Source of the DNA: Elusimicrobiota bacterium
Lineage (GTDB): Bacteria > Elusimicrobiota > Elusimicrobia > UBA1565 > UBA9628
Reading direction: 5' to 3'
Assembly (NCBI GenBank): GCA_023249675.1
Contig: JAHFCE010000010.1
Coordinates: forward strand, 1 to 64,000
DNA length: 64,000 nt
Each line of letters starts with the position of its first letter. The stretch's first letter is position 1. This document shows positions 19,037-60,687 of this stretch, one piece after another. The notes beneath the pieces are model-generated. The model was not told the origin of the DNA. It was given only the letters and a program-made list of their open reading frames with translations, and did not search any database. The position numbers and the translations under genes are program-made.

Positions 19037-19043
19037 GGCGGGC

Positions 19044-19049
19044 ATTATA
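19044..19049 (-). promoter_or_regulatory. -10-like TATAAT, 7 nt upstream of ATG 19036
   Basis: Minus strand TATAAT-GCCCGCC-ATG. Confidence 0.45.
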
Positions 19050-20220: not shown

Positions 20221-20234
20221 GCGCGGGGCTTAGT

Positions 20235-21776: not shown

Positions 21777-23965
21777 GCGAAGCGCTGCTCCCACAGCGCG
21801 AAGAGGCCGTAGAGCGCCAGTCCCCCGGCGAATGAGAGCATGAGTGCAAGCGCCGCGCCAAGCACGCCGAATGGAGGAACGAGCCAGGCGGTGAGCGTTA
21901 GGTTGCCGAGGCCAGAAGCAAGCGCTCCGGCCACCGACAGACGCAGACCGGGAAAGTCGCGCGCGGCGTACAAGGCAGAGACTGTCCCATGCAGAAGTAT
22001 GAGCGCTGCTGCGCCTGCGAACGCCGCCACCCAGAGGAGGTCGAAGTGGTAGCGGCGGCCGAAAAGCGCGATACCCGCGACCGCAGTCGCGCAGAAAAAA
22101 GCCCAGGCCGCGAGCAGTGCGGGCGTTCCCCATTTCCGGAACAATGACCAAATCTCGCGCTGGCCTTCGGTCCCGCTCGCCATCGGGACCAGCACGGCCT
22201 GCAACATATAGAGGAACGCAAGCGCGATTTGCACCGTCGCCGTGAAATAGGCGCTGAACAGGCCGACTTCTTGGGTGCTGGCGTGCCGGTTGAGAAGAAG
22301 CCGCGCGGGGGCCAGGATGCAGGCGGTGGAAAGGAGCGCGGGCGCGGCCGTCGCGGCATAGCGGCCGACGGCCTTGACGAAGTTGAATTCGAAAGCGCGG
22401 CGCAGGTAGCGCCGCAAAGTCCACAACGCGCAGGCGGAGCTGACAAGGAGACTGCCGACGAAGGCCAGGATCATCGCGTGGTGGTCGGCTCCAAAAAAGA
22501 CGACGAGCGCGGTGAGGAGGACGGGTGCTGAGAAGCCATAGACGGTCTCCACGAGTCCGCGGTGCGCGAAGCGCTTGAGGCCGAGCAAGGGGCTGGCCAC
22601 AACCTGGCTGAGTGCCGTCGCCGTCGCGAGAAGCGCTGATAGGGTGAACAGCTCGGCGGGCAGGCCCAGCGCGCGCTCAAGCCAGCCGTGCGCAAGGATT
22701 ATCAGGGGAAGGCTCAGCACGGCCCACACGGCGAACGACGCGAGCGCGGTGGTCACTAGCCGCGCTCGCCGTTCCTCCTCATGTTCGTCGGAGATTAACT
22801 TACTCGTGGCGAGAGGAAAGCCCAGCATGGGGATGATCTGCAGGTAGGCCGCGGCGGCGATGACGAGGTTGGCGCGGCCGTACTCAACGGGGCCAAGCCA
22901 GCGGCCCGCGATGACCTGGGTGGCGAGTGTTGAGATTTTGGCCAGGCCGTAGAGGGAGCCGATCCAGGCAAATCCCTTCAACAGACCTTTTGTGTGCGCG
23001 CCCGAATCCTTGCTGATGAGATTCGCGCCGGTCTGGAGGCACCCCTGCATGATCCCCAGGATGCGTCCCGCGTCGATGACCATTCCCACGAGAGGCAAGG
23101 TCAGAAGGGCCAACTTTCTTTCTTGGATGAGCGCGAAGTTGTTCGATTTTCTTGTCGGATAATAATAACCGCGGAAAAGGATGTAAGCGGCGAGAAAGAA
23201 CCATAGACTGGCCGGGCGCCAGACGGTTGAGCCCAGGAGGACGGCCAGAGCGGTTAGGTAATAGTACGGAGTGTAGTAGTAGGGGATGCCGACGGTCGGG
23301 GCGGTGTAGGCGATATTTTTCTTGAAGATATGCGCCAGGGAATCCCCATAATTGACGCCGATGTAACGGATCACCACATCCTCATTGATCCCGCGCTTAA
23401 TCCCCATTTTCCCGAGCAGAAGCGGCCAGGCGAAGTCGTAGCCCGCGCGACGATTGGCCAGAAAGAGGCCGGTCCTGTCGAAAACGGATTTCTTCACCAA
23501 TGTTGTGGGAATCGTCGGCAGGAAATTCTTGTAGCCGTAGGTCTGCGCGACCGCCGACATGTCGAGGAGGCCGACTCCCGTGAGGATGCAGCCGCCGGAG
23601 ACCAGATCGACCTCGGGATGGGCTGAGACATAATCCCATTGCTTGCGCAGCCAGTCTATTTCGAAATTCTGACCGCAATCCATGAAGGCGATCCAGGTCG
23701 AGATCGCGCGCACAATGGCGATGTTTTTGGAGGAAGACGGCGTGTCCGTGCCTGCAAAAACGTTGTGGAACCTGGTTTCGAACCGGGGCTGGTTCTCCTT
23801 GATCCAATCGTCAATGATTCGGGAAGAGTCGTCGGTCGAGCTCGAATTGACGAAGAACACTTCCCGCGGCATGAGCGTCTGCCGGCTGATGAGTCCGAGG
23901 GTCGTTTGGAGGGTCTTCGATTCGTTGTAGTACGGGAGAGCGACGCTGATGTCAGCGACTGGCAT
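21773..23965 (-). CDS. GT2 glycosyltransferase - Wzx-type polysaccharide flippase fusion
   Basis: N-terminal 1-310: DISVALPYYNESKTLQTTLGL...EVFFVNSSSTDDS; C-terminal about 325-730: GFAWIGSLYGLAKISTLATQVIAGRWLGPVEYGRANLVIA (PST/Wzx family). Confidence 0.82.
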   Translation of the reverse strand: MPVADISVALPYYNESKTLQTTLGLISRQTLMPREVFFVNSSSTDDSSRIIDDWIKENQPRFETRFHNVFAGTDTPSSSKNIAIVRAISTWIAFMDCGQNFEIDWLRKQWDYVSAHPEVDLVSGGCILTGVGLLDMSAVAQTYGYKNFLPTIPTTLVKKSVFDRTGLFLANRRAGYDFAWPLLLGKMGIKRGINEDVVIRYIGVNYGDSLAHIFKKNIAYTAPTVGIPYYYTPYYYLTALAVLLGSTVWRPASLWFFLAAYILFRGYYYPTRKSNNFALIQERKLALLTLPLVGMVIDAGRILGIMQGCLQTGANLISKDSGAHTKGLLKGFAWIGSLYGLAKISTLATQVIAGRWLGPVEYGRANLVIAAAAYLQIIPMLGFPLATSKLISDEHEEERRARLVTTALASFAVWAVLSLPLIILAHGWLERALGLPAELFTLSALLATATALSQVVASPLLGLKRFAHRGLVETVYGFSAPVLLTALVVFFGADHHAMILAFVGSLLVSSACALWTLRRYLRRAFEFNFVKAVGRYAATAAPALLSTACILAPARLLLNRHASTQEVGLFSAYFTATVQIALAFLYMLQAVLVPMASGTEGQREIWSLFRKWGTPALLAAWAFFCATAVAGIALFGRRYHFDLLWVAAFAGAAALILLHGTVSALYAARDFPGLRLSVAGALASGLGNLTLTAWLVPPFGVLGAALALMLSFAGGLALYGLFALWEQRFA

Positions 23966-24986
23966 TCTTGAACCTGTGCTCGTTGTAGCGTCGGAACCAA
24001 GCGAGGGTCTTCTTGAGGCCGTCCTTGAAGCCGTGGCGGGGCTTCCAGCCGAAATACTTGTTCACCTTCTCAAAGTCCATATACTGGCAATCGATTTCAC
24101 CCGTCGTTCTCCTGCGCCTCATTGCGGCCGAGACTTGCGCGAAGTCCTTCTTGTTGCCCGCAACGGAATAGATGAGTTTCAAGACCTCGCGCACGGAGAT
24201 GGGGGAATTCGTCCCGGCGTTGAAGACCTGTCCGGAGATCTTTTGCGGATCTTGAGCCAGCGCCTCTCCAATCAACAGGTAGAGGCCCACGACGTCCTCG
24301 ATATAGATGAAGTCCCGGACCTGCGAGCCGTCGCCGCGCGGGACGAACTGTGTATAGCCGAGGGCCGAAGTGATGGCGTCGGGCATGATGGCGGAGAAAT
24401 TGAGCTGGCCGGGACCGTAGATGTTGCAGAAGCGGGTGACCACGATGGGAAGCTTGTAGATCTCGGAGGCATAGGCTTGAGCGATCATGTCGGCGCAGGC
24501 CTTGGACGTGTCGTAAGGATAGCGCGGTTTGAGCGGATAATTCTCCTTGTAGGGCATTTGATCCCGGCCATAAGAGCCGTATGCTTTATCGCTCGAAGCG
24601 ACGACGACGGCTTTGACTGTGAGCGGGAATCGGCGGACGGCCTCGAGCAACGTGTAGGTCCCGCGGACGTTGGTCTCGAAGGTCAGGCGTGGGTTGGCCG
24701 CCGCCACGCCGACTTCGACCTGTGCGGCGAGGTGAAAGACGCAATGGATCTGCTCTTCTGAGATGATTCGCGACAGGAGTTCCTGATCGCAAAGATCGCC
24801 TTCAATCAAGGTTATTTTTGAGGCGAGATCCTCGAAATAAAGAAAAGTGTCCTGCTTCCGGTTTCTGATCAGACCAAAGACGTTGGCGCCCTTACCCAGC
24901 AAGCCTTGAGCGAGATTGCCGCCGATGAAGCCGTTGATCCCGGTAATGAGGACGTTTGTTCCGCGCCAGAAACCGTTCTTTCCCAT
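23952..24986 (-). CDS. NAD-dependent sugar-nucleotide 4,6-dehydratase (CDP-glucose/GDP-mannose dehydratase-like)
   Basis: NVLITGINGFIGGNLAQGL, HLAAQVEVGVAAANPRLTFETNVRGTYTLLEA, RYPYDTSKACAD. Confidence 0.88.
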   Translation of the reverse strand: MGKNGFWRGTNVLITGINGFIGGNLAQGLLGKGANVFGLIRNRKQDTFLYFEDLASKITLIEGDLCDQELLSRIISEEQIHCVFHLAAQVEVGVAAANPRLTFETNVRGTYTLLEAVRRFPLTVKAVVVASSDKAYGSYGRDQMPYKENYPLKPRYPYDTSKACADMIAQAYASEIYKLPIVVTRFCNIYGPGQLNFSAIMPDAITSALGYTQFVPRGDGSQVRDFIYIEDVVGLYLLIGEALAQDPQKISGQVFNAGTNSPISVREVLKLIYSVAGNKKDFAQVSAAMRRRRTTGEIDCQYMDFEKVNKYFGWKPRHGFKDGLKKTLAWFRRYNEHRFKNASR

Positions 24987-24987
24987 T

Positions 24988-25674
24988 TTAGTTTCCCTGG
25001 AAACGACCAATATTTTTTTCCGCTTCTTCGAGATCTTTGATCGTATTGACGGTGATGTGAACGCCTTTATGTCGATAGGCGTTGAGCTGTCCCTGGGCGA
25101 CGAGGTGGCTGAGGAAATCCTCGAAGTGTTTGAAGCCGCGCATCCAGGAGAGAGCTTCCTTCTCGAAATAAAAGTAGCCGATGTTGATCCACTTGTCGAG
25201 GGTCGGCTTTTCCATGAAGGAGACGACCTTCCCGTCTTCCGCGACTTCCAGAAGGCCGAACTGGCTTCGCATCGGCCAAACCGTGATCGTCACTTTTTCA
25301 GGGCGCGAATGATGGAACGCAGCGAGATCGTCCAGATTGACATCGGACAGCGTATCTCCATAGAGGACGAGGAAATCCCCCTTGATGAGGGGGCCGCAAT
25401 CGGCCAATCTCTTGATGATGTCGACATCGCCGGAATCGACGAGCTCCACTTTTAATCCGAGATCCTTCTCGAAATATTTTTTTATCTTATCCGCTTTATA
25501 TCCCACCGCCGCGATAAATTCTTTAATGGAGTATCGTTGAGAATGCTCAACGATATGTCCCAAGAGGGGTTTGCCGTGGATGGCAACGAGAGGCTTGGGC
25601 AGGTCCTCGGTCAGGGGGCGAAGACGCTCGCCTTTCCCGCCGCAAAGAAGAATGACCTGGAGGGCTGCGTCCAT
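24988..25674 (-). CDS. Sugar-phosphate nucleotidyltransferase
   Basis: VILLCGGKGERLRPLTEDLPKPLVAIHGKPLLGHIVEH. Confidence 0.92.
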   Translation of the reverse strand: MDAALQVILLCGGKGERLRPLTEDLPKPLVAIHGKPLLGHIVEHSQRYSIKEFIAAVGYKADKIKKYFEKDLGLKVELVDSGDVDIIKRLADCGPLIKGDFLVLYGDTLSDVNLDDLAAFHHSRPEKVTITVWPMRSQFGLLEVAEDGKVVSFMEKPTLDKWINIGYFYFEKEALSWMRGFKHFEDFLSHLVAQGQLNAYRHKGVHITVNTIKDLEEAEKNIGRFQGN

Positions 25675-25696
25675 CAGATATTACAGTATACCACGG

Positions 25697-26455
25697 TCAT
25701 CGTCGCGCGGGGTCGCTCTGGCGCAAGGCGTACCAGTCCCAGGTCCCGGAGGCCTTGCCCGTGAAATCCCTCTCATGATCGAAGCCCGTGATCTCCACGC
25801 GCTTGAGCAGCAGAGGCTCCCGCCGCGCTTGATTGAGGCCGTAGAGAGAGCACGCCGCGCGCGTGAAGCCCGCGGCGCGCGCGGCCGCGGCGGCGCGGCG
25901 CGAGGCGGCTCCGTGCGGCCAGGTCATGGATGTCACGGGCCGTCCGAGGGCGTCTTCCAGTCTCCGGCGGGAGTCGGCGAGTTCGCGGGATAATTCCGCG
26001 TCGTCGAGAGCGTCGAGGCACGCGTGCGTGAGGCCGTGCGCTCCGATCTCGCAGCCCGGGATGAGCGCCAGCTCCTTCAATTCCGGCCAGGAGAGGTGCG
26101 GGCGTCCGGAGTCGAGAAGCCCCGGGGTGACGCAGACGGTGAATGGAAGGGACAGGCGCGTGAGAATCGGGGCCGCCGCGGTCAGTGTGTCGAGATACCC
26201 ATCGTCGAATGTCACCGATATTTCGGAGCTTCCATCGATTCGGGCGCCGCTCAGGCTGACGGGCCGTCCGAAGCGGCCTGAGCGGACCAGCTCCATCTGG
26301 CGCGCGAAGGCGTCAGGTGGGGTGCTGAGCCCGTACCGGTCGCCGAGGATGGCCGTGCCGACCGCGTGGTATCCCAGGACGCGCAGTCCCGAGTGCTGCG
26401 CGGTCCGCCCGGCGACGCGGGAGATCGTCCGCCAGAGCGAGTGCTTCCAGCTCAC
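25697..26455 (-). CDS. Polysaccharide deacetylase family protein
   Basis: EISVTFDDGYLDTLTAAAPIL, CEIGAHGLTHACL, SMTWPHG (NodB homology motifs). Confidence 0.9.
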   Translation of the reverse strand: MSWKHSLWRTISRVAGRTAQHSGLRVLGYHAVGTAILGDRYGLSTPPDAFARQMELVRSGRFGRPVSLSGARIDGSSEISVTFDDGYLDTLTAAAPILTRLSLPFTVCVTPGLLDSGRPHLSWPELKELALIPGCEIGAHGLTHACLDALDDAELSRELADSRRRLEDALGRPVTSMTWPHGAASRRAAAAARAAGFTRAACSLYGLNQARREPLLLKRVEITGFDHERDFTGKASGTWDWYALRQSDPARR

Positions 26456-27441
26456 TCGCCCTTCCCCAGCTTCCAGGCGATCAAAGCTCCCGCGGGGCGG
26501 CGTAGGGCGGCCGGCGCCGCGAAGTCGCGTTCGCCCAGCGTTTCAATCAGACGCGCGCCCGTGCCTTTTTTGAAGTCAGCCACGCCCGCTGCCGCGTCAG
26601 GGTCGGCGCCACCGAGGTCGTAGGTCCGCGCGCCGAGACGGCGTGACTCCAGCACCAACGACCAGAGCAGGCTATAAGAGGCGTAAACTTTTCGCGCCTC
26701 CTCCGTGGCGGCGGCGAGAAGGTCCACGGCTGAGCCCGAGAAGACCGCGCACGCGCGCAATGCGACGGTGCGACCGTCGATGACGGCGCGCCTGAGGATC
26801 AAGGAGCCCCCGAGCGTTCTCACGAGCGAGCCCAATTCCTTCGCGCGATGCTGAGGAGGAAGCCCTTTCAGGGACTCGAGGGCGCGGTAGACGGTCTCCA
26901 TCTCGGCCGGATCGGGATCGGGCCAATGGACGGCCTCAGCGCGCGCCAGACCCCGTTTGAGGTTGTGGCGCCAGTTAGACGAGAGGCCCGCGCGGAGATC
27001 TTCGGGCTCGGGCGAGAGATCGAGCAGGTATGTCATGTTTCGATCGAGGGGTGTTTGGGGACGCTGCCAGCCCGAAGCGCTTAGGGCCGAGCTCGAAGCA
27101 GCATCGGATTCGTGATAGGAGCAGATCCGTCCGTAGACCGCGAGGCCGCCGGCGGATGACGCCAACGTCTTGCGCAGTTCCGAGTCCCAGAGCGCGGGTT
27201 CGCCGACTGGCCCGCCGCGTAACCAAAGAAGACGCAGGCCTCCGGGGAGATCTTTGACCAGAGCCTGCGCCGCCGCGCGCGCCGTGCCGTCGTCTCCGGC
27301 GAGCGCGCGCACCGCACGCCAGCCGGTATCGGCCTTGTGCCGCGCCCAGGCCGCGGATTGGAAGACGTTGGCGTTGTCTAGGCGCGACAGCGCCTTGTCC
27401 CAATCCGCGTCCGAGAGTTCCGCCGCGCGCCAGTTCACCAT
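26452..27441 (-). CDS. FemAB/BioF2-like GNAT acyltransferase
   Basis: VFQSAAWARHKADTGW, LSSNWRHNLKRGLARAE, YSLLWSLVLESRRLGARTYDLGGADPDA; start at ATG 27441. Confidence 0.8.
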   Translation of the reverse strand: MVNWRAAELSDADWDKALSRLDNANVFQSAAWARHKADTGWRAVRALAGDDGTARAAAQALVKDLPGGLRLLWLRGGPVGEPALWDSELRKTLASSAGGLAVYGRICSYHESDAASSSALSASGWQRPQTPLDRNMTYLLDLSPEPEDLRAGLSSNWRHNLKRGLARAEAVHWPDPDPAEMETVYRALESLKGLPPQHRAKELGSLVRTLGGSLILRRAVIDGRTVALRACAVFSGSAVDLLAAATEEARKVYASYSLLWSLVLESRRLGARTYDLGGADPDAAAGVADFKKGTGARLIETLGERDFAAPAALRRPAGALIAWKLGKGE

Positions 27442-28460
27442 AAGAAGTGGACCAGCGCGACGTTGCGATGATGTTCCGGCGCGGAGGAGGCGAGCGCGGC
27501 GGGAAGATCCGGCCAAGGAAGAACGGTCAGGCCCTCGGCGGCGAAGAGGGGGCGGGCGGAATCAAGGCTGCCGCGGAACGCGTAGGCATAGGGGACGGTC
27601 CCCTGGGGCAGTTCCGCAAAGACCGGAGCCAGACCCGCGCGGCGCGCGATCTTGTCGCAGAGCGCCCAGAGAGCACGGCGGCGCGAGGCCTCGATGGCGG
27701 GGTCGGCGCAGGCGAGGGGGCGCTTAAGTTGGACGCAGGGTTCGGCGGGCTCGGGCAGGACTCGTTCCGATGCAGGGTCGGGAGCGACGTACCCGCTCGA
27801 ATCGCCGCGCAGCGCGCGCAGCGCGCTCAGGCCCGCGTGCGCGCCAGCGGCGCCGGCGAGCGCCAGCAGCGGGCGCGCGGCTGCCTTCAGAACGAACCTG
27901 CGCCCTTTCGAGGGCGCGTAGGGTAGAGGCGGAGGCAGGCGTGCGGCCAGGGCCGGGTCATTGGCGAGGAGTGCTCCGCCGTTGGGCAAGGGGAGGCTCT
28001 TGCGCAGGCTCAGTATCCCGAGAGGGGCGCGGGTCCCCAGGAGGCGGCCCCCGGCGTCGCGTGAGAAGAGAGCGTGCGCCGCGTCCTCGATGACAACGGC
28101 GCCGCAGCGTCGCGCGTAGGCCTGGAACGGGGACAGGTTCGAGGCGAAGCCGAAGTAGTCGACGGCCAGGACCGCGCGAGCCTCAGGCCAGAGCGTTTGA
28201 TCCTCATCGGCGGAGAGGTCGGGGCGCACTTCGTAGAACGCGGGTTCGGCGCCGGCCGCGGCGACCGCGGCGAGGAGATCTCGGCAGATGAACGAGGGCA
28301 GGAGCACGCGTTGGCCCGCGGCTCCAGCCAGGCGCAGGGCGTCCGCGAGGGCGCGGCGCCCACACGCGTGGAAGCGGATCACGGAGGGAGAAAAAAGCTC
28401 TTCCAGGCGCCAGGGGGTTTTCGCGCGCGGCGGGCGATAGACCGTAGCGGCGAGGTCCAT
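27435..28460 (-). CDS. DegT-like PLP-dependent protein (short, divergent subfamily)
   Basis: LLPSFICRDLLAAV, VVIEDAAHALFSRD, LSLRKSLPLPNGGALLA; TGATG overlap with upstream stop at 28460. Confidence 0.75.
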   Translation of the reverse strand: MDLAATVYRPPRAKTPWRLEELFSPSVIRFHACGRRALADALRLAGAAGQRVLLPSFICRDLLAAVAAAGAEPAFYEVRPDLSADEDQTLWPEARAVLAVDYFGFASNLSPFQAYARRCGAVVIEDAAHALFSRDAGGRLLGTRAPLGILSLRKSLPLPNGGALLANDPALAARLPPPLPYAPSKGRRFVLKAAARPLLALAGAAGAHAGLSALRALRGDSSGYVAPDPASERVLPEPAEPCVQLKRPLACADPAIEASRRRALWALCDKIARRAGLAPVFAELPQGTVPYAYAFRGSLDSARPLFAAEGLTVLPWPDLPAALASSAPEHHRNVALVHFLW

Positions 28461-29365
28461 CAGGCCCCCAGGCGCTTGAGCGCCCATAAGCCGGCGGTTG
28501 CCGCGTTCTTCCAGTCCCAAGGGCATTCGGCGAGGGCGCGCCGAGCGTAGGCCCCGCTTGTCTCAAGGTCGCCCTGCGCGATCAGTAGGCGCGCGGCGGA
28601 GCGGCACATGACGCCGAGGCGGCGGCGCATGAGCCGCCGCAGGCGCGCGTCGGGGTTGGGGAATTTTTTGAAGTGGTCGCGCAGGAGGTGTTCGAGGTTC
28701 GTGTGGTGATAGACGATCTTATTGGACGCTCCGTGCTCGACGAGTTGGTACTCCCCCAATATTTCTGGCACAAAGCGCATCCGGCAGACCTGGGCAAGGC
28801 GCATCCAAAGATCGTAGTCCTCGACCGTGTTGAATCCCGGGTCCTCCCGGAAAAGTCCAGCTTCGAAAAGATTTTCTTTTTTGACCGTCGTTGCCGAAGG
28901 AGACAGCGCGTTGCCCTCGAACAGGAGGCGTTCGTACATGTTCTCGACCCAGGGCCCATTGCGGGACACGCGCATCAGTTCGCCATTCTTGACGATATTT
29001 TCGTCGTGGCAGATGAGGTCGGCTTCGGGATGCGCGTCGAACTCGGCGAGGATCCGTGCGAGCTTCTCCGGGAACCACAGATCATCGTGGTCGAGAAAGG
29101 CGATCAAGCCCGCCTCGGCCGCGCGGATGCCCGTATTGCGCGCGCCGGCGATCTTCTTGTTCTCCTGCTTGATGCAGCGACCGCGAAGATCGTTATCTTT
29201 TAAAAATCGCTCGACGATTTCCTTCGTCGCGTCGATCGATCCGTCATCCACGACGACAAGCTCGAAGTCGCGGAACGTCTGCGCGGCGACGGTCGCGAGC
29301 GTCTTCTCAATGAAGCCTGCGGCGTTCCACGCGGGCACGATGATCGAGACGCGCGGCGCGGACAC
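28460..29365 (-). CDS. Glycosyltransferase family 2
   Basis: VSAPRVSIIVPAWNAAGFIEKTL, LVVVDDGSIDATKEI; GTG start at 29365 overlaps upstream TAG (TAGTG). Confidence 0.88.
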   Translation of the reverse strand: MSAPRVSIIVPAWNAAGFIEKTLATVAAQTFRDFELVVVDDGSIDATKEIVERFLKDNDLRGRCIKQENKKIAGARNTGIRAAEAGLIAFLDHDDLWFPEKLARILAEFDAHPEADLICHDENIVKNGELMRVSRNGPWVENMYERLLFEGNALSPSATTVKKENLFEAGLFREDPGFNTVEDYDLWMRLAQVCRMRFVPEILGEYQLVEHGASNKIVYHHTNLEHLLRDHFKKFPNPDARLRRLMRRRLGVMCRSAARLLIAQGDLETSGAYARRALAECPWDWKNAATAGLWALKRLGA

Positions 29366-30288
29366 TAGGCCCTCGCTGTCCTTGCGGCCTTCATCGCCGC
29401 GAGGCCCTCGCGCAGACCGGTCGGGCGCACGCCGAGTTCCCGCTCCATGCGCGCGGTGACGAAAGTCGTGTTCTTCGGACGCGCGGCGAGGCCCGGGAAG
29501 GACTTGCTCGTGACCGGTCTGATCAGGGACTTGTCGAGTCCGAACACCTCGGCGACAGCGAGCGCGAACTCGAAGCGGTCGACCTCGTCGCGGCCCGCGA
29601 GATGAAAGATTCCCGAAGGACGCTTGGCGATCACGGCCCACAGGGCGCTGCCGCAGGAGATGTTGTAGAGGGGGTTTTCGCGCACGTCGGTCACCATCGA
29701 GACGGTTTCGCCCTGCATCAGCTTCTCGTAGATCCAGGTCGCGGGGTTGGGTCGGGTGACCGCGTGGTTCCAGCCGTACATCAGGATCGGTCGCACGATC
29801 GTCCAATGCTTGAGCGTCTCCTGGACGAGGCGCTCGCACTCGACCTTCAGGCGGCCGTACTTGTTGATCGGGTTGACCGTGTCCGTCTCGCGGTAGGGAG
29901 CCCGGGTTCCATCGAAGACAGCGTTTGTCGAAACGTAGATCAGGTGTGAATCGGTGCGGCGGCAGGCCGAGGTGACGTTCAGCGTGCCCACGATGTTCGA
30001 CTCGAGGCTCTCGGCGTAGTGGTTTTCGACATAGTCCACGCTGGCGATGCCGGCCGCGTGTACGACCGCGTCGAAGCGCCGTCGCGCGAACAAGCGGTCC
30101 ACCGCGCGCTTGTCGCGGATGTCGAGAACGAGGTGCCGCGCCTTTGAGTCCACGATCACGTAGTCGCGCTGGTGCAGACTGACGATGTCCCAGTCCGGGG
30201 GCAGCGTCTCCTCCATGCTTTTGCCGAGCAGGCCGGTGCCGCCGGTGACCAGGACGGTTTTCGAGTCGCGGCTTTTGCGGCGGGGCAT
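29365..30288 (-). CDS. dTDP-4-dehydrorhamnose reductase-like NAD(P)-dependent reductase (RmlD family)
   Basis: VLVTGGTGLLGKSMEETL, YVSTNAVFDGTRAPYRETDTVNPINKYGRLKVECERLV. Confidence 0.85.
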   Translation of the reverse strand: MPRRKSRDSKTVLVTGGTGLLGKSMEETLPPDWDIVSLHQRDYVIVDSKARHLVLDIRDKRAVDRLFARRRFDAVVHAAGIASVDYVENHYAESLESNIVGTLNVTSACRRTDSHLIYVSTNAVFDGTRAPYRETDTVNPINKYGRLKVECERLVQETLKHWTIVRPILMYGWNHAVTRPNPATWIYEKLMQGETVSMVTDVRENPLYNISCGSALWAVIAKRPSGIFHLAGRDEVDRFEFALAVAEVFGLDKSLIRPVTSKSFPGLAARPKNTTFVTARMERELGVRPTGLREGLAAMKAARTARA

Positions 30289-30289
30289 T

Positions 30290-30850
30290 TTAGGGTAGTC
30301 GGAAATGGACGTTGAGAAAATCGATGAGGCTGACCGCGCGCCGGTTCAGGCGCGCCGGTTGCACCTCCTGCGTGGCGGCGAGGACGAGGTCCGCCTGTTC
30401 AGGCACTTCAGAGAACCGTGTGGCAAACGAGATGCGAGCGCCCGTCAGATTCAGGCCCGCGAGAGTCTCACGGAGGACTCCTTCGAACTCGTCTTGCGCG
30501 ACGATCCAGAAGTCCTTGCGGCCGCTTGCGTGCTCCCGGCGCAGTGCCGTGGCCACATTCTCTTGGAGCTGGCGGAACAGGCGGACCGTGTAGCGCGCGT
30601 AGTGATAGGTCTTGTGCGTTTTCTCGAGCGCGCCCTTCGGCGTCAGCAGGTACTGCGTGCGCTTCCAGTCCAGCTGCCGGACCTTGATAAGCCCCTTGCG
30701 CGCCAGACGCTTGAGCAGAAGGTTTGTCATTCCAAGCGAGAGTCCGGCGCCCTGCGACAGGCCGCGCTGGGTCTGGATCGGTTCGCGGGTGATCTCGCGC
30801 ATCAGCGCGAGTTCGCTTTCGTCGATGCCGGAGATGGGAGTCGAGGGCAT
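30290..30850 (-). CDS. EPS-associated MarR-family winged-helix regulator with an extra C-terminal domain
   Basis: TQRGLSQGAGLSLGMTNLLLKRLARKGLIKVRQLDWKRTQYLLTPKGALEK resembles the EPS-associated MarR family; ATG at 30850 lies directly after the palindromic operator. Confidence 0.8.
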   Translation of the reverse strand: MPSTPISGIDESELALMREITREPIQTQRGLSQGAGLSLGMTNLLLKRLARKGLIKVRQLDWKRTQYLLTPKGALEKTHKTYHYARYTVRLFRQLQENVATALRREHASGRKDFWIVAQDEFEGVLRETLAGLNLTGARISFATRFSEVPEQADLVLAATQEVQPARLNRRAVSLIDFLNVHFRLP

Positions 30851-30869
30851 ATGTTCAGTGATTGAACAT
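30851..30869 (-). promoter_or_regulatory. Operator site 1: ATGTTCA-ATCAC-TGAACAT (minus-strand sense)
   Basis: Perfect 7-bp arms, 5-nt spacer; -10-like TAGAAT at 30868-30873 (minus) overlaps it. Confidence 0.8.
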
Positions 30870-30898
30870 TCTACCATTTCCGTCCCCGCCGAGTCCGC

Positions 30899-31906
30899 CT
30901 AAAGGCCTCGGGCGTGAAGGTCGTGGACCTGGATCAGGCCGACCGCGCGGCCGCGGCGATCGACGACGGGCAGGACGTTGAACGGGTTCCTCCGGTTTTC
31001 CATGAGGGCGACGGCCTGAGCCGTGGAAGTGTCGGGGCGGACCGTGGTCGGGTGCGGGTTCATGACATCCTGGATCGAGAGTGTGAATGGATTTTTTCCG
31101 CCTTCGAGGGCGCGTCGGAGGTCGTAGTCGGTGACAAGACCCACGAAGCGTCCGCGGGCGTTCACGATCGACGCGGCTCCGGCCTGCTTGCGGGTGATCT
31201 CGATGAGCAGGCGCCGTACGCCTGCGTCCAGGCGGACCACCGGATTGTCCTTGCCGGCGCGCATGACGTCCGCGGCGGTCAGGCTCAAGCGGCGGCCCAG
31301 CCGCCCTCCGGGATGATTACGCGCGAAGTCGCCGGCGTCGAAGTTTCGGCGCTTCATCAGCGCGACGGCGAGCGCGTCACCGATGACGAGCGCGACGGTC
31401 GTGCTGCTGGTCGGCGCGAGATTGAGCGGACAGGCCTCCTCGACGATCGGGGTATGAAGGATCACGTCCGCTCGGCGAGCTAAAGTGGACTTCGGATTGG
31501 CGGTCAGCGCGATGAGCTTGGCTCCGCGCGCGCGCAGATGCGGGAGCAGTGCGTTCAACTCGTCCGACTCGCCGGACTTGCCGATCGCGAGCACGAGATC
31601 CTGGCGCTGGACCAGACCCATGCCGCCGTGCATCGCCTCGACGGGGTCTAAGTAGACGGCCGGCGTGCCCGTCGATGAGAGCGTGGCTGTGATCTTTTGC
31701 GCGATCGCGCCCGACTTTCCGACTCCGGTCAGAATCACCTTGCCGCGGCAGGAGGCCAGCATCTCGACGGCCCGTGCATAGGAGGAGTCCACCGCGCTGC
31801 GGACGCGGCGCAGGGCGGTTCTCTCGCAGTCGATCACGCGGCGGATCTCCGCGAGGATGTCGAGCCGGGAGGCCTTTTGTCGGGAGCGTTTCATTGCAGT
31901 CGCCAT
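30899..31906 (-). CDS. kdsD: Arabinose-5-phosphate isomerase (KdsD/KpsF/GutQ) with SIS and tandem CBS domains
   Basis: VILTGVGKSGAIAQKITATLSSTGTPAVYLDPVEAMHGGMGLV; CBS repeats; start refined to 31906, as the longer ORF is a shadow of the upstream gene. Confidence 0.92.
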   Translation of the reverse strand: MATAMKRSRQKASRLDILAEIRRVIDCERTALRRVRSAVDSSYARAVEMLASCRGKVILTGVGKSGAIAQKITATLSSTGTPAVYLDPVEAMHGGMGLVQRQDLVLAIGKSGESDELNALLPHLRARGAKLIALTANPKSTLARRADVILHTPIVEEACPLNLAPTSSTTVALVIGDALAVALMKRRNFDAGDFARNHPGGRLGRRLSLTAADVMRAGKDNPVVRLDAGVRRLLIEITRKQAGAASIVNARGRFVGLVTDYDLRRALEGGKNPFTLSIQDVMNPHPTTVRPDTSTAQAVALMENRRNPFNVLPVVDRRGRAVGLIQVHDLHARGL

Positions 31907-31910
31907 TCTA

Positions 31911-33776
31911 TCATTCCGACCGCACGTTGAGCGCGGCGTCGAGGGCGGCGGCGGCGCGTTCCGCGCCGCCGCCGTCACCCGAGAAGAAGAGCTGCTCGAG
32001 CAGACGGTTTCGGGATGGTTCATCGGGCAGGCCGCGTCCGGCGTGGAAATGTTCGAGCGCCTCGCGCAGGCCGGAGACCGAGGTGAAGCGCGTAATGTCG
32101 GCTGCCTCGGAGAGGGCGGAAGCGTCGTAGGCGAGCGGGCGCCACTGCCATGCGGGGATTCCGCGGAGAACGGCCTCCTCGCCGATCGTCGAATAACTGA
32201 AGAGCACGGCGTCGGCCCAGGCGAAGTCCTCCTTGAGGGGGCTTGATGAGAGCTCAAGACCGGCGCGCGCGCGGGCGTAGGCCGCGTCGGTTCGAGGTTG
32301 GACGAATGGGTGCTCGCGCAGACGCAGGGACACGCCCGGCAGGCCTGCGGCCGCGGCGCGCGCGGCTTCGAGCATCTGCGCTTCCATCCCCAGATCGAGC
32401 GCCGGCGCGAGAAGGAGGCGCACGCCTTTTCCAGACCAGGATTTGACCGGGGCGGGGGGGCGGATATGGTCGAAGCGCGGGGAGCCGGTCGCCACGACGC
32501 GCTGCGGAGGATAGCCATAGGAGAGGAAGTGCTCTCGCGGCTTGAGCCCCATCGCGAGGACGAGGTCCGGAGTCGGGACCGGGAGGCCGTCCGGCTCTCC
32601 GCGGAATTCGCGTGCGGGCTCGAGGAAATAGAACGTCTTCTCAGCGCAGAAGGTCGCGTGCTGGAGGGTCGCGGTCAGGGCACTCGGCGCGCCCGCTCGC
32701 GTTCCGGCGTAGCACGCTCGCGCCTGGGGGTAATGCTCGAGGAAATGGACGACGGCGCGCGGACGTAGGCGCGCGGCCGCGCGCTGGGCTGCGCGCTCGA
32801 CCAGCGTCGCGCGAGGGATCGAGGCATCGGCGAAGCCGCGCAGGAGGCATTCTTCAAAAAGGGGAAAAAGATCGAGGTCTCCGCTCTGGAAGACGGCGCG
32901 AAAGTCGGGGCGGCCGCGGCGGCGCAGGTACGCGCCAAGAGGTCGGAAGTCGGCGGCCGCCCTCAGCGCGTCGAGCGGCTCGAGGAAAGCCTGCATCAGG
33001 ACGATCCCTCTTCGAGCGGCGTCGCGCGCGGATTCGAAGCGTCCGCGCCGCGGGCGGGCGGGGTCGCCCCCCGGGTCGAGCCAGCAGAGCCAGTTCACGC
33101 TGCGTCCCCTGGCGCTGAGCCGCTCGGGAAAGGCCTTGAAGTAGCGGTCGACGATCTTGCGGCCGTCAAACCAGCACGACCAGTCCCAATAGCCGAAGAG
33201 CAGCACATCGGCGCGCCCCGCGCCGACGTCGGCCGCGCGTGCGGCGAGGATATCGAGCAGCGCGTCGGCGGCGAAGGCGAGGCGCGAGCCGGCCGCGCGC
33301 AGGAGGAGGAGAACGCGCGGGTGGGATGCGGGCGCGCGGCGCTCCGCGACGGCGAAGCGCGCGCGCAGGACCGCGACGATTTCCCGCGGCGCGCCCCATG
33401 TCTCAAGCTCGGACGCGCCGAGACTTTCGGCGGCCTCCAGGACCGCGTGGACCGCGATCAGACGCGAGAACGCGGGGTCCATTTCGCAGGCCTTGAAGGA
33501 GCCGGGATGATACCACCAAGACGATGCGGCGCTGCCGCCGCATTCCGCGCGCAGCGTGGGGCCATTGGGCTCGGCCGAGGCGCCGATGGAGGCGCTGACG
33601 CGCAGGTAGGTCTCCAGGGCTGCGGCCCGGGCCGCAGCCGAGCAGGCGCGCGCGCGGAGGAAGGGGCCGCGCGCGGCGTGCGCGAGAGTCTCTTCCGCAA
33701 TCGGCGGCAGGAAGCTGAGGAGCGGCCCCTCGGGCGGCGCCGGGGGAGGGACCCAGCAGACGGTCAGACGCGTCAT
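31911..33776 (-). CDS. Surface carbohydrate biosynthesis protein, putative GT-B-like transferase (possibly TIGR04326-like)
   Basis: 621 aa; TATLQHATFCAEKTFYF, VVATGSPRFDHIRPP, RLREHPFVQPR, FAWADAVLFSYSTIGEEAVLRGIPAWQW (capsule/CDP-glycerol transferase-like motifs). Confidence 0.6.
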   Translation of the reverse strand: MTRLTVCWVPPPAPPEGPLLSFLPPIAEETLAHAARGPFLRARACSAAARAAALETYLRVSASIGASAEPNGPTLRAECGGSAASSWWYHPGSFKACEMDPAFSRLIAVHAVLEAAESLGASELETWGAPREIVAVLRARFAVAERRAPASHPRVLLLLRAAGSRLAFAADALLDILAARAADVGAGRADVLLFGYWDWSCWFDGRKIVDRYFKAFPERLSARGRSVNWLCWLDPGGDPARPRRGRFESARDAARRGIVLMQAFLEPLDALRAAADFRPLGAYLRRRGRPDFRAVFQSGDLDLFPLFEECLLRGFADASIPRATLVERAAQRAAARLRPRAVVHFLEHYPQARACYAGTRAGAPSALTATLQHATFCAEKTFYFLEPAREFRGEPDGLPVPTPDLVLAMGLKPREHFLSYGYPPQRVVATGSPRFDHIRPPAPVKSWSGKGVRLLLAPALDLGMEAQMLEAARAAAAGLPGVSLRLREHPFVQPRTDAAYARARAGLELSSSPLKEDFAWADAVLFSYSTIGEEAVLRGIPAWQWRPLAYDASALSEAADITRFTSVSGLREALEHFHAGRGLPDEPSRNRLLEQLFFSGDGGGAERAAAALDAALNVRSE

Positions 33777-34714
33777 CGGCGCAGGAACTCGGAGGCGGCG
33801 CGAGCGCAGTCGAGCCCGGCGATCGCGGCGCGGCCCATCGCGAGGATGGCCTCCTCGGTCGAGCCGCCGATGTGCGGCGTCGCGAGAATCTTCGGGTGCT
33901 CGAGCAGGCGCCGGTCCTTCGGCGGCTCTTCGGCGAACCCGTCGAGGCCCGCGCCGGCCAGGCGCCCGGCGTCGAGTGCCGCCAGCAGGGCGGTCTCATC
34001 GATGAGGCCGCCGCGCGCGGTGTTGATCAGCACGGCTGACGGTTTCATCCGCGCGAGACGCGCGGCATTTATGAGGCCGCGGGTGTCCGAGACCAGCGGG
34101 GCGTGGAGGCTGACGACGTCGGACTGGGCCAGCACATCGTCCAGGTCGAGAAGCGCGATGCCTTTTTCGGCGGCGAAGGCGCGATCGGGCGCGGGGTCGC
34201 AGGCCAGCAGGCGGACGCCGAACGGCGCGAGCAGGGTGACGAGCTCCCTGGCGACGGCGCCGAGGCCGACGAGGCCGACGGTCTTGCCGGTCAGCGTCGA
34301 GCCCTTGTGCTGGCGCCACATCCCGGCGCGTAGGTCGGCCTGGTCCTCCGGCAGGCGCCGCAGCAGCGCCAGAGTCATCATCAGCGCGAGTTCGGCGACA
34401 GAGCGGCTGTTGGAGCCCGGCGTCCAAGCGAGCTTCACTCCGTGCTTGGCCATCGCGGCGAGGTCGAAGGAGTCGAGGCCGACGCCAAACTTGCTGATGA
34501 CCTTGAGTCCAGGCAGGCGTGCGAGCAGGGCGTCGTCGATGACCTCGAGCGCCAGCACGGCCTTGTCGCATCCATCGAGAAATTCGATGAGGGCGGTATC
34601 CCGCAGCGACGCGCCCGCGTCATTGAAGCGCGCGCCGGGATGGCGGGCCAGAAGTTCCGCGCGCAGAACCGCGTGCTGCGAGAACGAGCGCGATGCGACT
34701 GCGACGAGGCTCAC
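33773..34714 (-). CDS. D-isomer 2-hydroxyacid dehydrogenase (phosphoglycerate dehydrogenase-like)
   Basis: GKTVGLVGLGAVARELVTLLAPFGVRLLACDP, INTARGGLIDETALLAAL, LATPHIGGSTEEA. Confidence 0.92.
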   Translation of the reverse strand: MSLVAVASRSFSQHAVLRAELLARHPGARFNDAGASLRDTALIEFLDGCDKAVLALEVIDDALLARLPGLKVISKFGVGLDSFDLAAMAKHGVKLAWTPGSNSRSVAELALMMTLALLRRLPEDQADLRAGMWRQHKGSTLTGKTVGLVGLGAVARELVTLLAPFGVRLLACDPAPDRAFAAEKGIALLDLDDVLAQSDVVSLHAPLVSDTRGLINAARLARMKPSAVLINTARGGLIDETALLAALDAGRLAGAGLDGFAEEPPKDRRLLEHPKILATPHIGGSTEEAILAMGRAAIAGLDCARAASEFLRR

Positions 34715-35802
34715 GGAAGTTCCGCCGTGCGGCCTTTGGCGAGGTATTCAGCGCAGACGGCGCGGAACTTCTCATCGGCCGGCGCTGAAACCTTGCGGAT
34801 CGTCCCGGCGGCGTTGGGCATGATCAGTCCGAGACTCTGCGCGGAGTTTTTCTTGTCCTTTGCCAGCGCGCCAAGAAAGTCATCGAGCGGGACCGGCGTC
34901 GTCTCGAAGCCCCGCCAGTTGGCGGCGAGGGTCGGACGCATGCGGCGGTAGTGCTCCGCGGAGCCGAGGCCTAGCCGCGCGGCGGCGAGATTGGCGAAGT
35001 CCATGCCGATGGTGATCGCGATGCCGTGGGGGATCGCGTAATTCGTCGCCGCCTCGAGAGAGTGGCCAAACGAATGTCCATAGTTCATCACGAGGCGCGG
35101 CCCCGCGTCAAACTCGTCGGCCTCGACGATCGGCTTCTTGATCTCGAGGCAGCGGCGCAGGTAGCGCGACATGACGGCTCGGTCTGTGAACAGGCGCGGG
35201 TAGTCCGTGGCGATCGCATCGAAAGAGGCCGGGCTCTCGATTGCGTGGACCTTCAGCATCTCGCCGACCCCGGAGCGCACGTCGCGCTCGTTCAATGTGT
35301 CGAGGAAACACGTGCTCAAAACGATCCTCTTCGGCGGCGTGAAGGTGCCGAGCACGTTCTTGGCGCCGCCGCCGTTGATCGAACTTTTCGAGCCGACGCA
35401 GGAGTCGGCCATGGCGAGAAGCGTCGTTGGAACGAAGGACCAATCGACGCCGCGGAGCATCGTCGCGGCGAGGAAGCAGGCGATGTCCTGCGTGACGCCT
35501 CCGCCGATGGCGACGAGCGCCTGGCCGCGGCGCAGGCCCTTCGCGACGAGGTGGCGCACATAGGCCGGCATCGCCTCGATGGACTTGGCGTCCTCGGCCG
35601 CGTCGATCAGCAAGATGGAGCGCGACAGGAGCGCGGGTCTAAGCCCGCGCTCATAGAGGCCGGCGACGCGGCGGTCGATCAGGAAGTGCGCGCCGGCGGA
35701 GGCCGGCGCGACGAGCTCGGCGAAGGGATCGTCGCGGAACTCGACCGCGTACGGGCCCTTGTGCGAGGCGATGATCAGGTCAGACGCGAGTAAATCCGCC
35801 AT
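34711..35802 (-). CDS. 3-dehydroquinate synthase (AroB)-related sugar phosphate cyclase/lyase-like enzyme
   Basis: LVAIGGGVTQDIACFLAATMLRGVDWSFVPTTLLAMADSCVGSKSSINGGGAKNVLGTFTPPKRI. Confidence 0.88.
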   Translation of the reverse strand: MADLLASDLIIASHKGPYAVEFRDDPFAELVAPASAGAHFLIDRRVAGLYERGLRPALLSRSILLIDAAEDAKSIEAMPAYVRHLVAKGLRRGQALVAIGGGVTQDIACFLAATMLRGVDWSFVPTTLLAMADSCVGSKSSINGGGAKNVLGTFTPPKRIVLSTCFLDTLNERDVRSGVGEMLKVHAIESPASFDAIATDYPRLFTDRAVMSRYLRRCLEIKKPIVEADEFDAGPRLVMNYGHSFGHSLEAATNYAIPHGIAITIGMDFANLAAARLGLGSAEHYRRMRPTLAANWRGFETTPVPLDDFLGALAKDKKNSAQSLGLIMPNAAGTIRKVSAPADEKFRAVCAEYLAKGRTAELP

Positions 35803-36499
35803 CGATGAGGAAGGTCTGTCCGCTCGCGTAGGTGTTGTCGGGGCTGCAGAGCCAGTACGCCAGCGCGGCGATCTCGGCGGGCCGCGCCAAGCGCCCGATC
35901 GGGATGCGCGCGACGAGCTTCTGGACGCCTGCGGCGCCGAGGATTCTTCGCGTCATGTCGGTGTCGACGAAGCCGGGCGCCAGAGAATTGACGAGCACGC
36001 CGTCGCGCGCGGCCTCGGCGGCGAGCGACGCCGTCAGGCCGTCGAGGCCGAACTTGCTCGCCGAGTAGGCGCCGCGTCCTTCGCGCGACACGACGCCGAA
36101 GACCGAGGTCACGTTGACAACACGGCCCCAGCGCCGTTTTGCCATGCCGGGCAGGAGCGCTCGGCACAGCAGGAACGGGGCGCGCAGGTTGACGCGCTGG
36201 ATGCGGTCGTAGTCGCCGGCGTCGATGTCGGCGAACGGCGAGATCTTGTTGACTCCCGCGTTGTTGACGAGAATTCCGAAACCTTGGCGCCCGGCCCATG
36301 CGGCGAACGCCTCGGCCGCGGCGTCGTCGCCGAAGTCTGCCGCGGCGTACGCGCAGCCTATCGGGGCCTTGCTTCCTGGGCGCGTGCCGGTGACCGTGAC
36401 TTTCGCTCCGGCGTCGCGCAGGCGCTGTGCGATCGCTCGGCCGATGCCGCGCGTACCGCCCGTGACCAGGGCCTTGCGGCCGGAGAGGGGCCTCTTCAT
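35780..36499 (-). CDS. Short-chain dehydrogenase/reductase (FabG-like)
   Basis: KALVTGGTRGIGRAIAQRL, NNAGVN, YSASKFGLDGLT; ATG 36499 with ATGA overlap. Confidence 0.9.
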   Translation of the reverse strand: MKRPLSGRKALVTGGTRGIGRAIAQRLRDAGAKVTVTGTRPGSKAPIGCAYAAADFGDDAAAEAFAAWAGRQGFGILVNNAGVNKISPFADIDAGDYDRIQRVNLRAPFLLCRALLPGMAKRRWGRVVNVTSVFGVVSREGRGAYSASKFGLDGLTASLAAEAARDGVLVNSLAPGFVDTDMTRRILGAAGVQKLVARIPIGRLARPAEIAALAYWLCSPDNTYASGQTFLIDGGFTRV

Positions 36500-37545
36500 C
36501 GCGTCCTCTTCGGAATACGGTCGGACAGCCGGTAGCGGCGCTTCCACGCCGGGTCCGCGCAGTAGATGCGGTAGATCAGTTCCATCGTCTTCAGCGCCTC
36601 CAGCGACGAGCCGTGGACGACGGGGGTTCCTTTCAGCACGCAGTCGGCGAATTCAAAGATCTCGTCGCGCCACGAGTTGTCCTCATTGTAGCGCGTCGTG
36701 ACCTCGCTGGGATCGCCGGCGTCCCCGTGCGCGGCGCGGGCGACGGTCAGCGTTTCCGCGCCGTAGGATTTCGAACCGGAGAGGATGCCGGACAAAGTCA
36801 GCGAGCCTTTCTCGAGCGCGATGTCGAGGTTAAAGCGGTGCCGCCACTGCGTGGCCGACGAGTGCAGCAGCGCGACGACGCCGGAGCGCGTCTTCATCAG
36901 CGCATAGGCGTTGTCCTCGACATCGTGCCTCCAGAACTCGTTCGACACCACGCTGTGGACCTCGGCGAAGTCTCCGGCGAACAGGCGCATCAGGTCCACC
37001 ATGTGGATGCCCTGGTCGAGCAGAATGCCGCCGCCGGCGTGGCGGCGCTGGGCGCGCCAGCTGTTCTCGAAGGCCACGATGCGGCTCTTGCCGTAGACGC
37101 CGTTGAGATTCAGCAGGCGTCCGAGGCGTCCGGAGCGCACGATCTTGAGCGCGTCGCGCACCGAGTCGTGGTAGCGGTGGTTGAAGCCGTACTTGAGCTT
37201 GAGGCGAGGGTGCTTCCTCTCAACGGCGCGGACCCGCGCGACGTCGGCGATGTCGCGTCCCGGGGGCTTTTCGCAGAACGTATGAAGTCCCTTCTCGAGG
37301 CCGCGAATCGCGGCATCGGCGGCGAGGTCGTTGGGCAGGCTGACGAACAACAGGTCGAGCGCCTCCCGGGCGATCATCCGCCTGTAGTCCGCGTAGAACC
37401 GAACGCCATCGGGGAATGTCCCATCGCGGCCGAAGCGCGCGTCGCTGATGGCGGCGGTCGCCAGTTGCGGGTGCGCGTCGATGAACGGTCGGCGCCGCGG
37501 GCCGACCACGCCGTAGCCGGCGATTCCAACGCGCAAGCGCTTCAT
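36496..37545 (-). CDS. Gfo/Idh/MocA family oxidoreductase
   Basis: RVGIAGYGVVGPRRRPFIDAHPQL, HTFCEKPPGRDIADV. Confidence 0.88.
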   Translation of the reverse strand: MKRLRVGIAGYGVVGPRRRPFIDAHPQLATAAISDARFGRDGTFPDGVRFYADYRRMIAREALDLLFVSLPNDLAADAAIRGLEKGLHTFCEKPPGRDIADVARVRAVERKHPRLKLKYGFNHRYHDSVRDALKIVRSGRLGRLLNLNGVYGKSRIVAFENSWRAQRRHAGGGILLDQGIHMVDLMRLFAGDFAEVHSVVSNEFWRHDVEDNAYALMKTRSGVVALLHSSATQWRHRFNLDIALEKGSLTLSGILSGSKSYGAETLTVARAAHGDAGDPSEVTTRYNEDNSWRDEIFEFADCVLKGTPVVHGSSLEALKTMELIYRIYCADPAWKRRYRLSDRIPKRTR

Positions 37546-38330
37546 ATCGCCGCCGCCGCGGCGTAGAGCGGTACCAGGCGGTCCGCTGCCATCGCGGCTT
37601 GGACGCGGGCCAAGTCCTCGGGCGTGTCCACGGACAGGGTGCGCGTTTTGGTCAGGGCCATTTTGACGGCGTCTCCGTGCTCGAGGAGGCGCAGCATGTC
37701 GATCGCTTCGGCGGTCTCGAGCGGTCCCGGCGGCAGCGCGTTGAAGCGCAGCAGGGCCTCGCGGCGGAACGGCACGATCGCGACGTGGCGGCGGCGCGGC
37801 GCGGCGCAGGCGCCCTTTTGACGGGTCGGGATGGGCTCACGCGAGAAGAAGAGCGCGCGGTCGTTGAGGCCCGTTACGACCTTGACCGTGTTGGGGTCGT
37901 CAAACTCGGCATCGGTCGGAATATCGGCGATCACGCTGGCGACCGAAAGCGACGGATCCTCGAGCAGGAGCCGGACGGCGTCATCGATCATTTGGGGGAC
38001 GACCATCGGCTCGTCGCCCTGCATCAGCGTCACGATATCGATGCGGCGGCCGGTTTCGGCCTCGATCTTGAGCATGGCCTCGGCCACGCGGTCGGTGCAG
38101 CGGTCGTGCGCGGGCTTGGTCATGACGGCTTTGGCGCCGATCGAGTGGGCGTAGTCCATGATTTCGCGGTCGCAGGTGGCGATCCAGGTTTCCGCGACGG
38201 TCTTCGCCATGGCGGTCCGGAAATAACAATGGCCGATCATGGGGATGCCGCAGATGAGCGCCATCGGCTTGCCCGGAAAGCGCGAGGAGGCCATGCGCGC
38301 GGGCACCACGGCGACGACGCGGGGTGTCAT
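37542..38330 (-). CDS. CMP-Kdo synthetase-like cytidylyltransferase (KdsB family)
   Basis: RVVAVVPARMASSRFPGKPMALICGIPMIGHCY; LMQGDEPMV; start refined to ATG 38330. Confidence 0.88.
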   Translation of the reverse strand: MTPRVVAVVPARMASSRFPGKPMALICGIPMIGHCYFRTAMAKTVAETWIATCDREIMDYAHSIGAKAVMTKPAHDRCTDRVAEAMLKIEAETGRRIDIVTLMQGDEPMVVPQMIDDAVRLLLEDPSLSVASVIADIPTDAEFDDPNTVKVVTGLNDRALFFSREPIPTRQKGACAAPRRRHVAIVPFRREALLRFNALPPGPLETAEAIDMLRLLEHGDAVKMALTKTRTLSVDTPEDLARVQAAMAADRLVPLYAAAAAI

Positions 38331-38374
38331 GGGGTCGATAGTATCAATTCGCGCTCCGGCCGCGGGATGCGGGC

Positions 38375-39538: not shown

Positions 39539-39780
39539 CCGTTCCGTTTTGCGAGCTTTTCGATTACGATGGTTTCCGCGGCCTCGAACGAGCTCATGTC
39601 GACGGCGTCTTCGTCTGATATGGTCACGTCGAACTCCTGCTCGATGGCTGAGATGAGCCCGAGCTGAATCAGGCTGTCCCAATGGGCGCAATTCGCCCGG
39701 GTCCGCTTGCGGACCGGCCCCGTTTCTTCAATCATAAGGTCGAGAAAGATGGCTTCGATTTTTTCAGCGGGATTGGACAT
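39535..39780 (-). CDS. Acyl carrier protein
   Basis: 81 aa, acidic, HWDSLIQLGLISAIEQEFDVTISDEDA with DSL phosphopantetheine motif. Confidence 0.88.
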   Translation of the reverse strand: MSNPAEKIEAIFLDLMIEETGPVRKRTRANCAHWDSLIQLGLISAIEQEFDVTISDEDAVDMSSFEAAETIVIEKLAKRNG

Positions 39781-42109: not shown

Positions 42110-42126
42110 TGTTCAATCGGTGAACA
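42110..42126 (-). promoter_or_regulatory. Operator site 2: TGTTCA-ATCGG-TGAACA (+ strand reading)
   Basis: Perfect 6-bp arms, 5-nt spacer; TATAAT at 42135-42140 (minus); one base upstream of ATG 42108. Confidence 0.8.
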
Positions 42127-42179
42127 ACAAGGAGATTATAGAAAAAATGGCGGATATTCGGCAGCCCAAACGCACGAGG

Positions 42180-45700: not shown

Positions 45701-45727
45701 CAGCGCTGCCTCACGCGAGTGACGAGG

Positions 45728-46696: not shown

Positions 46697-46703
46697 TTGA
46701 GCG

Positions 46704-47537: not shown

Positions 47538-47538
47538 G

Positions 47539-48282: not shown

Positions 48283-48288
48283 CGCGGT

Positions 48289-49856: not shown

Positions 49857-49858
49857 GG

Positions 49859-52112: not shown

Positions 52113-52114
52113 AG

Positions 52115-53524: not shown

Positions 53525-53543
53525 GCGGTGCTGGCGGTCCTGC

Positions 53544-53783: not shown

Positions 53784-53801
53784 AGATGGGATCTCCTTAT
53801 C

Positions 53802-55690: not shown

Positions 55691-55696
55691 TATGGC

Positions 55697-60682: not shown

Positions 60683-60687
60683 TTGTA

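Follow-up and report, generated by a model that had tools for sequence, protein, structure and literature searches.

A long-form MarR_EPS relative as a predicted self-repressing switch for surface-glycan genes in Elusimicrobiota

Which genes does the winged-helix regulator of an Elusimicrobiota surface-sugar locus control, and through which DNA site? The gene lies on the minus strand of a 64,000-nt stretch (the window; positions 1–64,000 of contig JAHFCE010000010.1, assembly GCA_023249675.1), and an earlier note, made from the letters alone, had read it as a MarR-type exopolysaccharide (EPS) regulator, likely autoregulated and carrying an unusual C-terminal domain. NCBI annotation places MarR_EPS regulators in many EPS clusters. 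In the open literature searched we found no published operator, regulon or mechanism for them; a described PEP-CTERM/PrsR sigma-54 motif involves a different site and regulator (PMC1569441), and a MarR EPS gene is merely listed, as up-regulated under salt, in another report (PMC10599003). Judged from comparative sequence analysis, the product of the regulator gene is very probably a self-repressing switch that governs capsule and surface-sugar genes.

The regulator and its relatives

The gene and the parts of its product are as follows.

30290..30850, minus strand: regulator gene, winged helix (wHTH) plus C-terminal alpha/beta domain, 186 aa (profile match, AlphaFold2, homolog alignment)
30641..30820, minus strand: winged-helix DNA-binding domain, residues 11–70 (profile match, alignment, AlphaFold2)
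30527..30640, minus strand: long helix, residues 71–108 (AlphaFold2 model)
30299..30514, minus strand: C-terminal alpha/beta domain, residues 113–184, candidate ligand-sensing (AlphaFold2, profile comparison, phylum sample)

The equivalog model for MarR_EPS, TIGR04176 (105 positions, curated cut-off 88 bits), matches the regulator at model positions 3–101 with 56.7 bits (E 2e-15, profile search), which bears out the kinship to MarR/EPS proteins first read from the wHTH region, though under the cut-off. Canonical membership is rejected on this score, and the cut-off is reached in 0/199 Elusimicrobiota genomes searched with the profile. The homology spans the whole wHTH model (residues 10–105 of the regulator), the gene sits in an EPS cluster, and the operator half-sites GTTCA/TGAAC lie upstream, all as in MarR_EPS. 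Unlike the short TIGR04176 proteins, the regulator has a separately folded extra C-terminal domain of about 75–80 aa and a total of 186 aa, against about 115–140 aa in annotated plasmid members. The protein is best described as a long-form relative of MarR_EPS, predicted to act like a MarR repressor and not a member by the curated cut-off.

An AlphaFold2 model built on a 41-row alignment (mean pLDDT 89.8) resolves the wHTH (11–70), the long helix (71–108) and the alpha/beta unit (113–184); Q28, R29, G40, N43, L49, G53, Y67 and T70 are invariant wHTH residues in the alignment. The fold is of the MarR winged-helix type: the best structural matches in a Foldseek search of the PDB are mostly MarR repressors (PcaV, BpsR, MarR and FabT), and the best profile match to a known structure is FabT (6jbx, E 2.4e-4). 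Pfam MarR scores under its cut-off and HTH_24 above. Unlike these repressors, the regulator adds the alpha/beta domain, and its wHTH starts near residue 10, leaving no space for the N-terminal helix by which MarR proteins usually dimerise. Presumably the long helix that follows the wing mediates dimerisation instead, a probable role given the palindromic operator and the MarR-like folds. Sso10a-like and plasmid-partition wHTH proteins (4hw0, AspA) are also among the best PDB structural matches; Sso10a has a wHTH followed by a long helix. These proteins differ in their biology and lack the alpha/beta domain. Rex redox repressors join a wHTH to a Rossmann-like sensor, an architectural idea resembling that of the regulator, but neither the Rex N-terminal DNA-binding domain nor the CoA-binding Rossmann domain gave a match in Pfam or NCBIfam scans, and the C-terminal unit here is small and lacks a glycine-rich loop.

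Operator sites, start codon and predicted target units

A perfect inverted repeat, GTTCA-N5-TGAAC, occurs four times in the 2.6-Mb genome (contig positions 30853, 42111, 60667 and 64942), all within 34 kb. Base composition predicts about 1.1 copies genome-wide, and the reversed control pattern yields none. The earlier count of three operators is right for the window (30853, 42111 and 60667); the genome holds a fourth, 942 nt past the window end. The sites, their −10 elements and the units that they face are listed below.

30853..30867, minus strand: predicted operator site 1, GTTCAATCACTGAAC (repeat scan of window and genome, homolog upstream comparison)
30868..30876, minus strand: extended −10 element TGGTAGAAT (conserved in nearest relatives)
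42111..42125, minus strand: predicted operator site 2, GTTCACCGATTGAAC, 2 nt before ATG 42108 of a hexapeptide acyltransferase (repeat scan)
42135..42140, minus strand: −10 box TATAAT, 9 nt upstream of site 2 and not abutting it (sequence inspection)
60667..60681, minus strand: predicted operator site 3, GTTCAATCCTTGAAC, 36 nt before ATG 60630 of PseB (repeat scan)
60682..60687, minus strand: −10 box TACAAT abutting site 3 (sequence inspection, fused-element scan)
64942–64956, plus strand, outside the window: predicted operator site 4, CATAAT then GTTCAATATATGAAC (genome repeat scan)
17089..30850, minus strand: predicted unit 1 (extent inferred from collinearity only)
30899..42108, minus strand: predicted unit 2 of putative extent (profile matches)
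42180..60630, minus strand: predicted unit 3 of putative extent (profile matches)

The longest ORF of the regulator (30290–30877, minus strand, 195 residues) and the palindrome at 30853–30867 are present as previously described, with site 1 falling inside codons 4–9 of that ORF. The preference already expressed for ATG 30850, 2 nt beyond the end of site 1, gains from homolog alignment and from in-frame stops shortly upstream in relatives. We dropped the start at 30877, which appears spurious because the extended −10 element sits there: its ATG is the TG of that element, which relatives conserve. For a predicted translation start at ATG 30850, the extended −10 is a stronger argument than the presence of the palindrome within codons, on which the choice had been based.

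Genes of the predicted units point to surface glycans. Unit 1 would serve polysaccharide assembly, comprising the regulator, an RmlD-like protein, a glycosyltransferase, a DegT aminotransferase, a FemAB/GNAT protein, a polysaccharide deacetylase, a nucleotidyltransferase, a GDP-mannose-dehydratase-like protein, a glycosyltransferase–Wzx-like fusion and a Wzy-type ligase. Unit 2 encodes an acyltransferase, MaoC/SDR, a KdsB-like cytidylyltransferase, a Gfo/Idh oxidoreductase, an SDR, an AroB-like phospholyase, a 2-hydroxyacid dehydrogenase and a KpsF/KdsD-like isomerase. Unit 3 encodes PseB and PseC (both exceeding their cut-offs), a PseG-like protein, a cytidylyltransferase, NeuB/PseI, an AMP-ligase, LuxE, LuxC, a radical SAM protein and an ABC transporter. 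Site 4 faces the gene of a DUF2079 membrane protein. The predicted targets are thus pseudaminic-acid, KDO-like and polysaccharide assembly genes.

Three further features of this region were seen. LuxC, LuxE and the AMP-binding ligase (49859–53716, minus strand) form an acyl-activation/reduction set that is unexpected for a surface-glycan operon, here in the pseudaminic-type unit. The KpsF/KdsD-like isomerase (30899–32518, minus strand) carries about 215 extra N-terminal residues with no Pfam match. At site 4 the ATG of the DUF2079 gene lies inside the right half-site, suggesting a leaderless mRNA.

Association of operator and regulator, and promoter geometry

We examined the 250 nt upstream of each homolog in a set of 42 from Elusimicrobiota, the most distant being about 25% identical. 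The exact repeat precedes 31/42, and 35/42 have it with at most one mismatch; the runner-up among other 5-mer inverted repeats with the same spacer appears in only 2/42, and the GTTCA repeat with other spacers in 0–1. No recognisable site was found within 250 nt upstream of the remaining seven homologs, one of which (G003) has a site about 2.2 kb upstream. When the regulator and the composite TANNNT-GTTCA-N5-TGAAC were searched independently in 199 Elusimicrobiota genomes, the composite was found in 23/25 genomes with the regulator and 2/174 others (P = 1e-25 Fisher's exact test, indicative only, as related genomes are not independent). Repeats number 4.3 per genome with the regulator and 0.8 without (P = 3.5e-8). 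In the single-contig genome G010, 7/9 sites cluster within 44 kb adjacent to the regulator, preceding PseB, HisF-like, APS kinase, sulfotransferase and acetyltransferase genes; sites in further genomes precede NeuB and DegT aminotransferase genes. Not every site of a regulator-positive genome is in an EPS cluster: a few, such as one preceding AdoHcyase, fall elsewhere, possibly by chance.

Comparative genomics strongly backs both the proposal that the regulator is the natural ligand of these operators (31/42 homologs with the repeat upstream; 23/25 vs. 2/174 genomes) and autoregulation. Both MarR-type binding of the palindrome as a dimer and autoregulation have strong comparative support as predictions. 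The comparative data are association, and some homologs have no nearby site; both points suit a rival reading in which a different transcription factor binds the repeat and simply counts the MarR-like gene among the genes that it controls. We consider this improbable, since the composite motif tracks the regulator almost one to one in the 199 genomes, and on seven Rhodobacterales plasmids the sole N4 form of the repeat precedes marR_EPS.

Those plasmids come from our comparison outside Elusimicrobiota, which covered plasmid records. GTTCA-N4-TGAAC lies upstream of 7/8 Rhodobacterales plasmid MarR_EPS genes and is the only copy in each of the seven plasmids, a spacer of 4 nt compared with 5 nt for the Elusimicrobiota regulator. 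The one protein tested, from Sulfitobacter, scores 147 bits against TIGR04176, so the half-site appears common to the canonical family, with spacer 4. Long homologs on Chelatococcus plasmids have two tandem N5 repeats upstream, and an Aliarcobacter gene has one N5 repeat with a mismatch.

These plasmid loci have features of their own. The Chelatococcus repeats, in a GDP-fucose cluster (L087:14898-14940; L096 upstream of 1486), read GTTCACGGCGTGAAC / GTTCACGCCGTGAA[TC] in tandem, about 28 nt apart. The Aliarcobacter butzleri gene (L095) sits beside tet(H) on a small plasmid, with no EPS gene listed in the 2.6 kb examined. In Rhodobacterales (L086, L088–L092 and L094), a conserved block near GGTGCGGTAGCCGTGGC occupies the last 40 nt before the marR_EPS start; we take it to resemble the ops element of RfaH. 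NusG/RfaH paralog genes lie close to marR_EPS in L086, L091 and L094, and control in these bacteria may come in two successive steps, MarR_EPS at initiation and then RfaH-type antitermination.

At most sites the repeat holds a fixed position relative to the −10 box. At site 1 the hexamer TAGAAT (30868–30873) stops exactly where the operator begins, and the extended −10 has near-identical letters in close relatives; sites 3 (TACAAT) and 4 (CATAAT) have the same register. A TANNNT hexamer that runs without a gap into the leading G of the repeat is found at 48/68 distinct sites in regulator-positive loci and at 0/14 sites in regulator-free genomes (background 0.3%). A genome-wide scan for the fused −10 and operator, with two mismatches allowed, returns sites 1, 3 and 4 and no others. 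Assuming normal spacing from −10 to transcription start, the repeat would cover positions from about −6 to +9, and since the operator starts right after the −10 and lies over the predicted transcription start, a bound dimer should block RNA polymerase. EPS regulators are often activators, and winged-helix regulators can activate, so this protein might bind the site and activate instead; an overlap with the predicted start, just downstream of a good and often extended −10, is a position for repression, and we regard activation as quite improbable.

For sites 1, 2 and 4, as for many elsewhere, the start codon falls inside the repeat or a few bases from it, so leaderless or nearly leaderless mRNAs are predicted. 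The same proximity could suit a repeat that works in RNA and controls translation by folding into a hairpin (5-bp stem, 5-nt loop). Yet the half-sites are invariant in sequence and not merely paired (in an RNA stem, compensatory changes would be acceptable), the predicted transcription start lies inside the site after the −10, leaving the 5′ arm untranscribed, and in most homologs the spacing between repeat and start codon ranges from −6 to +29 nt. We reject the hairpin on this geometry as extremely improbable.

Genome comparison establishes, at the level of sequence, the identity of the operator, its genome-wide specificity, its link to the regulator, the fixed −10 register and the target genes; we infer direct binding, repression rather than activation, and dimerisation. 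In the mechanism that we propose, a dimeric MarR_EPS-like repressor would bind GTTCA-N5-TGAAC. At most target promoters the operator would begin at the base after the −10 hexamer, so that the dimer sits over the start and keeps RNA polymerase from initiating. With one of the sites in the promoter of its own gene, the regulator would set its own level by autorepression. It would also control at least three transcription units, four with site 4, for polysaccharide assembly and for pseudaminic acid-type and KDO-like CMP-sugars, and several of the target mRNAs would be leaderless or nearly so, with translation starting in or near the operator. We think it highly likely that this repressor, start-blocking, autorepressing and running the surface-glycan units, is the correct reading of the locus. 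The C-terminal domain may sense a pathway metabolite, at best guess a nucleotide-linked sugar, and then release DNA; its ligand is speculative.

The C-terminal domain and implications for glycan regulation

The added C-terminal domain is real, because AlphaFold2 shows a separate alpha/beta unit at 113–184; structure prediction of the kind suggested earlier also gives pLDDT 86 when this unit is folded alone. It has about 75–80 residues rather than the 90 first proposed, and it is usual for the phylum: in the 199-genome sample, the match to the alignment model extends into this domain in each of the 25 genomes with the regulator, one of these matches being truncated at a contig edge. The short canonical TIGR04176 proteins lack the domain. 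Profile comparison links the window-branch domain to that of a distant Elusimicrobiota branch (E 3e-8).

Two Chelatococcus plasmid homologs carry a fuller version with a weak match to TIGR03570, of NeuD/PglD type (E 3.5e-4 and 5.1e-4). The N-terminal domain of the NeuD/PglD family binds nucleotide sugars, and a weak PDB match to perosamine N-acetyltransferase was also seen. Unlike the Chelatococcus domain, the window domain itself has no NeuD/PglD (TIGR03570) match in Pfam and NCBIfam scans, and we set aside a link from it to the Chelatococcus Rossmann-like domain, since comparing the two profiles directly gave no significant match (E 0.069, probability 0.8%). A PDB-based identity of the fold was likewise dropped: the best match in a PDB fold search of the isolated domain has E 0.25, and the sister-branch domain profile gave only chance hits against PDB sequences.

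A nucleotide-sugar sensor is plausible and remains speculative. The domain could also be a structural or oligomerisation module without a ligand, a reading compatible with the repressor model and to which we give slightly under an even chance. The window branch has lost the glycine signature (VAQDEFE, compared with GxGELAE in Chelatococcus and GTGEAAE in L019), the sequence diverges fast (mean column identity 22%), and no PDB fold match is better than E 0.25. Against a purely structural role, the domain is kept across the phylum with profile similarity between its branches, and the Chelatococcus version hits the NeuD/PglD-type model TIGR03570 at E 3.5e-4.

The operator and regulon of a predicted surface-glycan autorepressor are now defined by comparison. 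A short exact DNA word predicts targets genome-wide in a phylum that is mostly uncultured, and also on Rhodobacterales plasmids, whose hosts can be cultured; a poorly studied family thereby becomes open to bench tests. With −10 and operator fused in a fixed register, the geometry for repression is clean, and leaderless mRNAs are predicted. A combined picture, possible though on balance unlikely, would have at least two phyla (Elusimicrobiota and Pseudomonadota) sharing one half-site, GTTCA, with operator and −10 box joined into a portable promoter–operator cassette in Elusimicrobiota, leaderless or nearly leaderless mRNAs for entire surface-glycan regulons, and nucleotide-sugar sensing. If true, the glycan pathway would report its own state to transcription through an added sensor domain.
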